Assembly: GCF_003033925.1 (NCBI RefSeq)
Contig: NZ_CP028365.1
Coordinates: 1,426,001 to 1,490,000, forward strand
Direction of reading: 5' to 3'
Source of the DNA: Tannerella serpentiformis
GTDB taxonomy: Bacteria > Bacteroidota > Bacteroidia > Bacteroidales > Tannerellaceae
Length of the DNA stretch: 64,000 nucleotides
Made by a program: the position numbers and the translations under genes. Position 1 is the stretch's first letter. Each line of letters opens with the position of its first letter. Positions 18,968 to 48,094 of the stretch are shown here, in pieces. The notes beneath the pieces were generated by a model that was not told where the DNA came from, searched no databases, and worked only from the letters and a program-made list of their open reading frames with translations.

Positions 18968-19942
18968 TTATTCTTCTGGCAGGGTAATATCTGGCCCGCT
19001 GCCTTGACTGCCTCCGGGTTGCTTGGGCTTCTCTCCTTCGCTTCCGGGAGTCTTGGGGTCTGGTTTCTTCGAATCTTTATCCTCAGGGAGATGGATGTCG
19101 GGTTTGCCGTCATCCTTTCCCGGCTTTTTGGGATTCGGTTCTTTCGGCTGCTTCGGATCTTTCGGCTTTTCGGGATCCTCGCCGTCTTTCTTCTTCTTCG
19201 ATCCGATCACTTGCGTCTTGTTGCGATGGACCACCTTATTCATATGAATGATAAAGGGGGCCGTGTCGAGTGCGTCGTCAACCACCGCCAAGGCATTGAC
19301 TACCCTGACGAGCCACTGGTAAGCCAAATCCGACTCATGACGGGCCGCGCGGAGTGAGCCGAGCGTTTGTGGCATGTTGTCGGAACGCTCGGTGAGCCAC
19401 TTCTCGATTTTTTCGTTGGCCGCTTTCAACGAGTCGACATACGGCTTAACGCCCAGCGACGAAACGTCGGTCGCGTACGTTTTCTCGCAGTCTCCCACGA
19501 AGCTAATGATGGCCCCGGTCTCTCGCTCCAGCTGCATACGGGCGTCGAGACGATAGGCGGTCATCACCTTGAGGATCGTTGCGGCCGATCGAGCCTTGTC
19601 GGCTTCTGGATGCTCTGCAAAACCTTTCAATGTTTTGCGTAGGGCGTTCAGCATACGTCCCCTTTCCTGATCCGCTTTGTGGATGTCGACCGTAATGAGG
19701 CTTTTTTGCGACTTAGCGTAACAGTCGTCCTCTTTCTTGGTCGCCGCAGCGAGCAGATCGGCAGCCTTTTTGATCTTCGGGTGTGCCAAAAGGGCCGTTT
19801 CGGTGGCCATGCGGTCGCTCACGTTCTTCATAAACAAGAAGTGCGCACCGTTGGTCATCAGCGTGCAGTTAATTGTGTCGATTTCGACAGGCGGTACAAT
19901 CCCCGCCGACGGATTTTGAGGAGCAGAAGGTGTCTCTGGCAT
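18968..19942 (-). CDS. DUF6261 family protein with charged C-terminal tail
   Basis: A 324-residue protein without a signal peptide. Residues 15-245 are helical and resemble the DUF6261 family of Bacteroidales, and a second member is encoded at 45957-46721. Residues from about 250 form a low-complexity Lys/Pro/Asp/Glu tail with repeated KKPDPKTPG-like steps, likely disordered. The function of the family is unknown. The gene is isolated, followed by a small inter-operon gap and preceded by 1.6 kb of repeat arrays. Confidence 0.75.
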   Translation of the reverse strand: MPETPSAPQNPSAGIVPPVEIDTINCTLMTNGAHFLFMKNVSDRMATETALLAHPKIKKAADLLAAATKKEDDCYAKSQKSLITVDIHKADQERGRMLNALRKTLKGFAEHPEADKARSAATILKVMTAYRLDARMQLERETGAIISFVGDCEKTYATDVSSLGVKPYVDSLKAANEKIEKWLTERSDNMPQTLGSLRAARHESDLAYQWLVRVVNALAVVDDALDTAPFIIHMNKVVHRNKTQVIGSKKKKDGEDPEKPKDPKQPKEPNPKKPGKDDGKPDIHLPEDKDSKKPDPKTPGSEGEKPKQPGGSQGSGPDITLPEE

Positions 19943-20059: not shown

Positions 20060-20280
20060 ACAACGCGCATGTTATTTAGTTGCTTCATCAGAGCAATTAA
20101 GAAACATTCTTGCGGCTTAATTGCTTCATCAGAGCAACTAAGAGACATTTTCTCGGCTTAATTGCTTCATCAGAGCAACTAAGAAACATTTTCTCGGCTT
20201 AATTGCTTCATCAGAGCAACTAAGAAACATTTTTGCGGCTTAATTGCTTCAACGGAGCAACTAAACAACATTCCCGTCAT
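20060..20280. repeat. 41-bp tandem array with TTGCT/AGCAA dyad
   Basis: ATTGCTTCAT landmarks occur at 20120, 20161, 20202 and 20243, plus degenerate end units. Each unit contains TTGCT-TCATCAG-AGCAA, a 5-bp stem and 7-nt loop. It is not CRISPR, because the stretches between dyads are repeated rather than unique. Confidence 0.85.
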
Positions 20281-20400: not shown

Positions 20401-21415
20401 GGCGTGTGCCTTGTATGTCTGCGAAAAGGGGTGCTTTCGTTTGGCATGTGTCTCGTTTGTCTACAAAAATCTATGGGGGCTTTGTTCTCTGGTCCCTCAT
20501 CTTCTTTTCTTTCCTTGATGAAAGAAAAGAAGGCAAAAGAAAATCAAGGCGATGATCGCCTTCTATTTTTCTGGGTACTGGATAGGTGGAATGAATCGTT
20601 GCTTCCGTTTGGCGGGATACTGGATAGGTGGAATGAATCGGTGTTGCCGTTTGACATGTGTCTCGTTTGTCTACAAAAATCTATGGGGGCTTTGTTCTCT
20701 GATCCCTCATCTTCTTTTCTTTCCTTGATGAAAGAAAAGAAGGCAAAAGAAAATCAAGGCGATGATCGCCTTCTATTTTTCCGGGTACTGGATCGGTGGA
20801 ATGAATGGGTGGTGCCGTTTGGCGGGATGCTTAATCGGTAGAATGGATCGGTGCTTCCGTTTGGCATGTGTCTCGTCTGTCTACGAAAATCTATGGGGAC
20901 TTTGTTCACTGGTCCTCTATCTTCTTTTCTTTCCTTGATGAAAGAAAAGAAGGCAAAAGAAAATCAAGGCGATGATCGCCTTCTGTTTTTCCGGGTACTG
21001 GATCGGTGGAATGAATCGGTGCTGCCGTTTGGCATATGCCTTGTATGTCTACAAAAATCTATGGGGACTTTGTTCTTCGATCTCTCATCTTCTTTTCTTT
21101 CCTTGATGAAAGAAAAGAAGGCAAAAGAAAATCAAGGCGATGATCGCCTTCTATTTTTCCGGGTACTGGATAGGTGGAATGAATCGGTGCTTCCGTTTGG
21201 CGGGATGTTTGATAGGTAGAATGAATCGTTGCTACCGTTTGGCATGTGTCTCGTCTGTCTACGAAATTCTATGAGGGCTTTGTTCTCTGATCCCTTATCT
21301 TCTTTTCTTTCCTTGATGAAAGAAAAGAAGGCAAAAGAAAATCAAGGCGATGATCGCCTTCTATTTTTCCGGGTACTGGATAGGTAGAATGAATCGGTGC
21401 TGCCATTTGGCGGGA
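20401..21415. repeat. Composite array on a strict 42/168-bp lattice with pseudoknot modules
   Basis: The landmark CGTTTG (or CATTTG) recurs at 20438, 20606, 20648, 20816, 20858, 21026, 21194, 21236 and 21404; every step is 168 or 42 bp. Each 168-bp segment contains a 13-bp stem with CTTGAT loop (arms begin at 20501, 20711, 20921, 21089, 21299), a purine-rich spacer, ATCAAG and a GGCGA-TGA-TCGCC hairpin followed by T-rich sequence. Long open frames across it, rich in LMKEKKAKENQG, arise because the period is a multiple of three. Confidence 0.9.
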
Positions 21416-21474
21416 TATGTTTTTTCGGACGATGGGGATGTATGTCTTTCTGCCTCTCCCTCTTTTTCGGGAGA

Positions 21475-23757: not shown

Positions 23758-24933
23758 TTACGTCAGCGAGATAATCTCCTCTTCGAAATGGGTGAGCTTT
23801 TCCGCGCCCGTCTCTGTGATGAGATAACTATTCTCGACACCTACCGCGCCCACCTCTGGGATCACAAATTTAGGCTCGAAGGCGATCACCATGCCCGGTT
23901 GCAGCGCATCTTTTGAGCGGGGAGTGAGCACGGGTGGCTCATTGATTTCCAAACCAATGCCGTGGCCTACAAACTTGGCCTGTTGACGCGTTCCCATGAA
24001 GCAGTCAGCCAGATTGGCCTTCTCTGCCATGCCAACAGCCATGCTGTAGAGTTCGCTGCATGCCAATCCGGGTCGCATAACGACCTCGGCAGCCGCCATG
24101 ATGTCTCTTGCCGTGCCATGCGCACGGTAGGCCTTTTCGCTGAGCCTTCCTACGGAGAAAACGCGCGTCATGTCAGAGATGTAGGCCGTATAATTGCCCG
24201 CCATATCGACCATGATGGCCGTCCCGTCCGTCAATTTCGTGCCATTAGCACCGATGGGACATATCGGCGTTTGTCCTGCGCCGCCAAGAGCGAAGTCGAA
24301 AGGTGACGCGGCCTCTGCATTCTCGCCAGCCAGAAGGCTGCCCATGAAGATGTTCATATTTGGCCCGTAAGTACGGAAGATGCCAATCGACCCGTGAAGC
24401 CTCATCCGCCTTTCGATCTCGGCTTGAAGTTCCAGATCAGTCATTTCGGGGTGGAAACAGTCCGGGATTTCTGCATAGACCTCGGCGTGACGCTGGGAAG
24501 AGAGCCGCAATTGCTCCACCTCCCAGGGTGTCTTAATCATACGCACGCGCCGCATGGCAGCGGAGACGTTTCCAGCCTTTTCGGGTTGGAACAGGTTGTA
24601 AAGGCGCATGTAATCGCTATACGAGAGTGTATCGGCCTCGAACAGGAGGTGTTTGGGCCGTGATTGTCCCGGTGCATTGCTGAACCAGCCGAGCATGTCG
24701 TCCGGACGATGCACGCGAACCGCCTCGACCGGCAAATCGCAGTCAGCAGGACGCCTTACAAACGCAACAGGCGCACCTTCCGTCGGCAAATAGAGCCAAC
24801 CATTGAAGACGCGCCCGGTAAGGTAAAAGAGATGGACGTCCGAAGCGAAAAGGGCCCCGTCCGCCGCAGCGTCGGCCAGTGCACTTTGTACACGGCAGCG
24901 CCTCAGGAGAAGATCATCGAGAAAAGCATTCAT
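23758..24933 (-). CDS. M24-family metallopeptidase (Xaa-Pro dipeptidase-like)
   Basis: A 391-residue protein with an N-terminal creatinase-like domain (1-150) and a C-terminal pita-bread domain. Metal ligands are visible in VDMAGNYTAYISDMTRVF (two Asp), GHGIGLEINEPP (His), FEPKF (Glu) and the final GVENSYLIT segment (Glu). Such enzymes remove residues next to proline or cleave X-Pro dipeptides in the cytoplasm. The exact specificity cannot be set from sequence. A TACCTTTG box at 25187-25194 on the complement may be its promoter, leaving a long leader. Confidence 0.85.
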   Translation of the reverse strand: MNAFLDDLLLRRCRVQSALADAAADGALFASDVHLFYLTGRVFNGWLYLPTEGAPVAFVRRPADCDLPVEAVRVHRPDDMLGWFSNAPGQSRPKHLLFEADTLSYSDYMRLYNLFQPEKAGNVSAAMRRVRMIKTPWEVEQLRLSSQRHAEVYAEIPDCFHPEMTDLELQAEIERRMRLHGSIGIFRTYGPNMNIFMGSLLAGENAEAASPFDFALGGAGQTPICPIGANGTKLTDGTAIMVDMAGNYTAYISDMTRVFSVGRLSEKAYRAHGTARDIMAAAEVVMRPGLACSELYSMAVGMAEKANLADCFMGTRQQAKFVGHGIGLEINEPPVLTPRSKDALQPGMVIAFEPKFVIPEVGAVGVENSYLITETGAEKLTHFEEEIISLT

Positions 24934-25299
24934 TTCTTTCTACTTAGTTTAATATGTTCACTTGTTAGGGGCTGCAGAGGTACATTTTTCGGCTTTTATT
25001 CGGTCGTTTCGCTGCCCGCGTGGCTCGTTTGGGTCCGAAATATGGTCGTGCCATGTCTCGCGACCCCATCCTGCGGAAGAGCAGAGATCCTTCCGAATGG
25101 CGCCCATCAAGAAAAGCCTCGAAAGATTTCGATGTCCTTCTGCGGCTTCCCCTTTAATCTATCCTAAACAGCCATTCATTGGATGGCAAAGGTAGGACAA
25201 TTTGTAAGGGACGAATTTGCATTCTGCACCTTACAAAAATGCAGATTGTAAAAAGACAAGAATCGTGCGTAACTCATTTTCTTCTATCTATTTGCCTCC
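24934..25299. other. Intergenic region between divergent genes
   Basis: No tandem array and no convincing gene are visible here. It holds a candidate minus-strand -7 box (TACCTTTG, complement of 25187-25194) about 250 bp from the M24 start, so a long 5' leader is possible. Confidence 0.4.
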
Positions 25300-47770: not shown

Positions 47771-48085
47771 TTCCTTTTCTTGCCTTGATGCAAGAAAAGG
47801 AAGCGAAAAGAAGATCAAGGCCTCACCGAGGCCGGGGAAGTTTGGCCGGGTACCAGGCAAACTTGGCTGGCGTCCCTGACGCCCCTTGATGCAAGAAAAG
47901 GAAGCGAAAAGAAAATCAAGGCCTCACCGAGGCCGGGGAAGTTTGGCCGGGTACCAGGCAAACTTGGCTGGCGTCCCTGACGCCTCTTGATGCAAGGAAA
48001 GGAAGCGAAAAGAAGATCAAGGCCTCTGCCGAGGCCGGGGAAGTTTGGCCGGGTACCAGGCAAACTTGGCTGGCGTCCCTGACGC
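47771..48085. repeat. 101-bp repeat with pseudoknot module and GGCCTC hairpins
   Basis: Copy 1 has a 13-bp stem (47771-47783 with 47790-47802), loop CTTGAT, spacer, ATCAAG (47814-47819) and a GGCCTC-ACC-GAGGCC hairpin. It is followed by GAAGTTTGGCCGGGTACC and GCAAACTTGGC, which pair in part. Two further copies, 101 bp apart, keep the 3' part but lack the 5' arm of the first stem. The period is not a multiple of 42. Confidence 0.88.
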
Positions 48086-48094
48086 CCCCGAGGG

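Follow-up and report, generated by a model that had tools for sequence, protein, structure and literature searches.

Short A/T-rich palindromes in the intergenic DNA of bacteria tend to be ignored; the one considered here shows covariation for two helices, carries a third strand and recurs in dozens of genera of one phylum, and the stretch of 64,000 nucleotides of Tannerella serpentiformis DNA in which it was noticed (the window) raises the question of which strand folds and what the fold serves. The first-pass annotation described five modules and a further element of the same geometry, and all six are present with the anatomy it reported. Module 1 (20501-20560, forward strand) is composed of a stem, S1, with its 5' arm at 20501-20513 and 3' arm at 20520-20532 enclosing the loop CTTGAT (20514-20519), followed by a connector and a mirror third strand that end at 20542 (AAAAGAAA covering 20535-20542), the tail ATCAAG (20543-20548) and the hairpin GGCGATGATCGCC (20548-20560), and its preferred folding strand appears to be the complementary (minus) one. 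Modules 2 to 5, at 20711-20770, 20921-20980, 21089-21148 and 21299-21358 of the forward strand, repeat this anatomy with loops at 20724, 20934, 21102 and 21312, and all five lie in a tandem array (20430-21416) of 210- and 168-bp units that differ by one 42-bp subrepeat.

The sixth full module (47771-47833, forward strand) has S1 arms at 47771-47783 and 47790-47802, the loop at 47784-47789, a spacer at 47803-47813, the tail at 47814-47819 and the hairpin GGCCTC-ACC-GAGGCC at 47819-47833, the first hairpin G being the last tail base. Two 5'-truncated modules follow on the same strand, one at 47885-47934 with a REP-like hairpin in place of the 5' arm and one at 47986-48036 whose 5' arm is also replaced. 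REP-like hairpin material of the modules' family (CCGGGTAC / GGCGTC...GACGCC) occupies 47834-48088 between and after these modules, and CCGGGTAC in either orientation is found 11 times in the window compared with 1.6 expected. A sequence-blind scan of the window for stems of at least 10 bp with a 6-nt loop and an exact loop complement within 16 nt returns exactly six sites, the five array modules and the 47771 element, and none in 60 first-order Markov surrogates. The five array copies represent one event and are mutually non-independent, so the weight of evidence rests on the 108 genomic copies described below.

Viewed on the strand of the first-pass annotation, the general arrangement is an S1 of 9-14 bp with a pyrimidine 5' arm, a 6-nt loop CTTGAN and a purine 3' arm (S1'), then a C, an A-rich purine strand, the tail N'TCAAG and a GC-rich last hairpin whose sequence differs freely between copies. 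The perfect 13-bp stem originally proposed does contain 13 Watson-Crick pairs but is extended by an additional U.G, and the stem has 14 bp in most genomic copies. Likewise the spacer, taken to be purine, is mostly so but contains one C, and it is a mirror copy of the stem 3' arm; this third strand, the roughly 100 genomic copies and the mobile-element setting had been overlooked. A two-state switch, in which tail pairing would compete with extension of the last hairpin, does not generalize, as the AAG/CTT extension is restricted to the window array and a small number of further copies, and elsewhere the last-hairpin sequence is replaced wholesale.

Both S1 and the last hairpin covary, with scores of 0.267 and 0.446 that are reached by none of 500 shuffles, and the compensatory changes behind both helices of the proposed pseudoknot lie far above shuffled levels. 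The pairing of loop and tail is most clearly defined at the junction. Among 120 modules picked regardless of that pair, the last loop base and first tail base are T/A in 87, C/G in 15 and A/T in 15, with one exception and two modules lacking a tail; the pair is complementary in 105 of 107 distinct modules from contigs fetched with those positions as N; and within the window's own genome loop base 6 and tail base 1 are T/A in 83 and C/G in 18, with two mismatches. The loop-tail pairing is thus real, and the junction-pair covariation places the module among H-type pseudoknots, which are defined by base pairing between a hairpin loop and a single-stranded tail beyond the hairpin. The loop complement is conserved in other genomes, the opposite of what would have refuted the first-pass proposal, and the invariance claimed for loop and complement holds for five of the pairs, whereas the last varies among T-A, C-G and A-T with compensation. 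Invariant pairs are no proof alone, so that within Bacteroidota it is the junction pair that is proven. A fully paired 6-nt loop would leave zero linker nucleotides, and the distal pairs may therefore not form, perhaps leaving the junction-proximal ones.

The purine strand preceding the tail (L3), when reversed, reproduces S1' from its second or third base onward. The reversed strand equals S1' bases 3-6 in 81-83 of 83 types at a single offset, other offsets failing, and in 31-32 of the 32 long forms the match extends over seven bases in a row; in a wider set the mirror match is complete in 192 of 207 types. Third strands with an internal G are mirrored in 56 of 65 types, compared with a shuffle mean of 7.7 and a maximum of 16. 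The last L3 base tracks S1' base 2, with A opposite A in 58 of 58 and G opposite G in 47 of 48, and C taking either A or G. Third strands are 4-10 nt long, with many short forms of 5 nt, and the connector measures 4-5 nt in 255 of 268 distinct modules. A mirror third strand on a constant connector is the expected signature of an intrastrand triple helix, which we infer from these sequence relations.

The non-Watson-Crick pairs of the stem indicate which strand is folded. In the lower stem 46 mismatches are A.C or C.A and 6 are G.T or T.G (p=1e-8), or 33:6 when mismatches are counted by source (p=1.4e-5), whereas the upper-stem mismatches (6 and 10) do not differ significantly, confining the asymmetry to the lower stem. 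An A.C on the strand used by the first-pass annotation is a G.U on its complement, so that wobble-tolerant selection seems to act on the complement, which seems to be the folding strand in place of the one originally chosen. The order on the complement is CTTGAN, a pyrimidine strand (CTTTTG or TTTCTTTTG), the stem 5' arm, the loop NTCAAG and the stem 3' arm, predicting an H-type pseudoknot with a U-rich loop 1 running parallel to the A-rich 3' arm. The mirror relation would correspond on this strand to the parallel Hoogsteen register of a triple helix (U.A-U, C.G-C), and the first base of the third strand, a conserved C, is here a G, which would suit a pyrimidine-motif triplex better than C suits the purine motif. 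A conserved A.C (G.U on the complement) in the lower stem near the third-strand start is also seen in several lineages (L041, L093, L101, L110 and genome G065).

Telomerase RNA contains an H-type pseudoknot with a triple helix formed by a U-rich loop 1. The order of helices and loops on the complement is the same, with a U-rich loop 1 that matches, in parallel register, the A-rich 3' strand of the second stem. It differs in that the module has no A-rich loop 3 (0 nt separate the loop and the 3' arm), has a 6-nt first stem and is a bacterial repeat known here from its sequence.

In the window's own genome (3.01 Mb) a motif search finds 40 sites, and a covariance model gives 144 matches at E <= 0.01; the stretches read around these matches contain at least 108 distinct modules, 92 of them with a stem of at least 8 bp, divided between the plus (58) and minus (50) strands. 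A copy under the strict motif is present in only one of 40 other genomes of the window's genus, indicating that the family has expanded in the window's lineage; contig L207 of Tannerella forsythia ATCC 43037, a strain of the same GTDB genus, is 100% identical to G001, another genome of the genus, and approximately 75% identical to the window's genome. The covariance models are trained on family members and the figures for spread depend on them: the own-genome model has matches in 6 of 13 genera of the family, and a second model, built from family-wide copies, in 99 of 295 Bacteroidales genomes (73 of 178 genera of that order) and, at E <= 1e-6, in 73 of 296 genomes of the phylum Bacteroidota (38 of the 140 genera sampled). 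The search across Bacteroidota suggested at first pass therefore recovers the module in many genera, and the module is a family spread between genes across much of the phylum, many genomes carrying between 20 and more than 100 copies. The important covariation tests used positions left free, with phylogenetic independence approximated by source only.

Among the matches listed in a scan of species genomes are Parabacteroides, T. forsythia, Flavobacterium, Elizabethkingia, Pedobacter, Chitinophaga, Saprospiraceae, Balneolaceae, Marivirga and Capnocytophaga, together with one Fusobacteriota record, Propionigenium maris; the module is present in Ilyobacter polytropus as well. The Rfam search, also proposed at first pass, was run against Rfam 15 and gives no family at the gathering score, the lax threshold returning only sub-threshold chance matches of the miRNA-noise type. 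Literature searches, including by motif letters and covering few subscription papers, gave no description of the Bacteroidota family. That the module is a phage feature was considered and rejected, since the Bacteroidota pattern occurs in 17 stretches among the 2.9 million contigs of IMG/VR and the phage records searched contain no match to the module.

The modules are frequently arranged as convergent pairs, of which 22 are separated by 114-848 bp, and the two ends of a pair have different loops and tails, each end being matched internally (L118, L114, L102, L120). In a Parabacteroides genome (G102) such a pair delimits a unit of approximately 490 bp (L102:1504-1994) bounded by the outer ends of the two stems, and these ends are common to many copies in six genomes. 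The orthologous locus in genome G075, with flanks 87% identical, has 37 bp instead of the element, and in G102 the insertion has replaced a gene tail, the stop codon being supplied by the module. Only this one locus provides an empty site, and its flanks are too diverged for a target duplication to be clear. Terminal inverted repeats and an empty site class the Parabacteroides element with the MITEs, an assignment that leaves aside the window's own copies. Other arrangements occur: within the window's genome a single module is joined to REP-like hairpins, and a unit in genome G133 consists of one module and a long hairpin. On a Parabacteroides distasonis plasmid (L397, NZ_OY725754.1 17852-18407) a convergent pair encloses an annotated 'smalltalk protein' gene, the unit lying between the genes for HU and an N-acetylmuramoyl-L-alanine amidase, and L304-L317 (G065) are intergenic mosaics with the module beside another frequent repeat (TGTCATCTCGACCGAAGTGGAGAGATCTC ... 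GATGCTTCGACAGGCTCAGCATGACA).

The Bacteroidales MITEs, for example those of Porphyromonas gingivalis (PMC4596501), are likewise small, non-coding, bounded by terminal inverted repeats and found in the same taxonomic order, the difference being that the ends here are pseudoknot modules with loop and tail consistent within each. REP, REPIN and BIME elements, associated with RAYT transposases (PMC3116915, PMC2817692, PMC3733652), share the palindromic form, high copy number, intergenic location, inverted pairs and non-autonomous nature; however, the modules have no evident GTAG/CGTC tag, their end structure is much more elaborate and most carriers lack a RAYT (Y1_Tnp). As a candidate mobilizer a RAYT/IS200-type enzyme (Y1_Tnp, PF01797) was rejected, with none in 6 of 10 carrier genomes and flanks without modules where one is present. 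An autonomous copy with its gene between convergent modules was also sought, and the interiors encode HlyD, an ABC transporter, CbiA/GATase, a chorismate-binding protein and an alpha/beta-hydrolase; these are ordinary neighbors, so no autonomous partner was found, and neither the Y1_Tnp survey of 10 carriers nor the genes between module pairs identified a mobilizing enzyme. The only Y1_Tnp gene of the window's genome (1380004; G000:C1:1378504-1381851, L061) lies among hairpins of the kind that trails the modules (GGCGTC...GACGCC...GGCCGGGTAC), near a second repeat with GGTTTCGCCC, and may be the RAYT of the REP-like hairpins.

We favor, as somewhat better than an even chance, the reading that the module is the conserved terminus of small non-autonomous mobile DNA repeats of MITE/REP-like type and that the folded strand serves the element. 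The complementary pyrimidine strand, when single as RNA or ssDNA, would fold into the H-type pseudoknot, its U-rich loop 1 occupying the major groove of the upper stem and running there in parallel as a third strand (U.A-U, C+.G-C). Retention of this fold at each element end suggests that it would be recognized by whatever machinery copies or mobilizes the element and not by neighboring genes. The triple helix itself, the service to mobility and the nature of the mobilizing enzyme are putative parts of this scheme, whereas the two covarying helices, the mirror strand with its constant connector, the mismatch asymmetry, the copy number and spread, the near-neutral gene orientation and the Parabacteroides inverted pairs bounding the ~490-bp unit with its one empty site are observed. 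A bolder and rather doubtful extension would make a telomerase-RNA-like triple-helix pseudoknot the structure by which the termini of very widespread bacterial mobile repeats are recognized; these repeats would span Bacteroidota and have relatives in Fusobacteriota and Pseudomonadota, and a putative reverse transcriptase or HUH-type enzyme would use the structure as an RNA or ssDNA intermediate.

Alternatively, the fold could serve host genes. With gene calls taken as the longest ORF, the gene on the 5' side of the module has no orientation bias (32:36 in the own genome and 74:73 in relatives), and the gene on the 3' side is antisense 44:24 in the own genome (p=0.02) and 77:67 in relatives. 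The former is a mild excess in which the complement strand follows the 3' end of the neighboring gene, a geometry that holds for both window sites. An element of the 3'-UTR, in which the hairpin, U-rich tract and pseudoknot of the complement would terminate or protect the upstream transcript, could explain this excess, the strand-specific folding implied by the wobble asymmetry and the presence on the complement of a GC hairpin followed by a T-rich tract. The T tract is, however, interrupted, other loci lack the bias (77:67 above), and for single-orientation modules in tandem intergenes the complement is co-directional in 24:12, 28:29, 10:4 and 3:7, none significant and the last three from loci outside the own genome. 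Convergent, tandem and divergent placement roughly follows the proportions of all intergenes, and replication-strand bias with arrays collapsed is not significant (p=0.25; origin position unplaced). A stabilizer or terminator is consequently improbable, and any regulation of adjacent genes by an RNA is not supported, copies being largely neutral to gene orientation; strand-specific folding without a strand preference relative to host genes suggests that the fold serves the element. Template switching in quasi-palindromes is able to perfect inverted repeats, and together with slippage in A/T-rich tracts it might generate the symmetries with no selected structure at all. It makes no mirror copies, however, and offers no source for an independent loop-complementary tail with compensatory changes in dozens of genera; with six sites in the blind scan against none in the 60 surrogates, this origin is very improbable and was already disfavored.

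The closest described repeats are the PIT/TM_ECO elements (Holder et al. 2015, PMC4666352, a paper that also cites earlier studies of the Maher laboratory), which share the order of pyrimidine arm, loop, purine arm, short connector and mirror purine strand and are intergenic, present in many copies without strand bias and sometimes arranged as inverted pairs with two loop types. The module fits the PIT layout (Y-loop-R-loop-R mirror, stems of 6-15 nt and loops of 1-6 nt) with its loop of 6 nt and connector of 4-5 nt. These similarities would be explained if the module were a plain DNA repeat of that type, forming a purine-motif intrastrand triplex on the first-pass strand that is kept up by, or gives rise to, stalled replication and instability, with no role of the fold in mobilization. 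But G.G-C triads are described as the driving force of purine-motif triplexes (PMC4666352) and the modules, with A-rich third strands, depart from the G/C-rich TM_ECO consensus; the conserved C at the third-strand start misfits the purine motif, the complement having G, and the mismatch statistics favor the opposite strand. Furthermore, the module connector is paired into the stem, the modules are ends of a larger mobile unit and their loop pairs with a conserved tail, whereas in the five Escherichia coli TM_ECO copies read the loop is CTTT and the tails (aac.. or cac..) have no complementarity to it. We consider a plain triplex-forming repeat unlikely on these grounds. Bacteroidota are not mentioned in the main text of PMC4666352.

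Beyond Bacteroidota, a handful of loci with a hairpin and mirror strand in other letters were compared by eye. The loop ends in TGCC with tail GGCA in Pseudoalteromonas (two records) and Ilyobacter, and loop and tail are TTTCGC and GCGA in Pasteurella multocida, CGTGGC and GCCAC in Aeromonas and CCGCCG and CGGC in Paraburkholderia, whereas those of Burkholderia cepacia and one viral contig are not complementary. The matches in different letters suggest that the 4-5 loop-tail base pairs nearest the junction recur although their sequence changes. On two Paraburkholderia replicons (L417 and L418) a hairpin with mirror strand, loop CCGCCG and tail (G/A)CGGC occurs at at least 38-40 BLAST places each, a betaproteobacterial relative of the module. 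Now that the ends of an element, one empty site and a prediction of the folding strand are available, the long-standing question of the purpose of intrastrand-triplex repeats becomes testable, and annotators gain a covariance model for a repeat of such high copy number.

Two other features of the window are separate from the modules. A hairpin at ~25170-25240 (minus strand), upstream of the M24 peptidase gene (23758-24933, minus strand), has the loop TTGTAAG and, 12-13 nt further downstream, the complementary CTTACAA; this is one instance, close to what that scan would give by chance. A 41-bp tandem repeat of 4.8 copies with a small hairpin (TTGCTTCATCAGAGCAA) lies at 20076-20272, a short distance upstream of where the DUF6261 gene (18968-19942, minus strand) starts.
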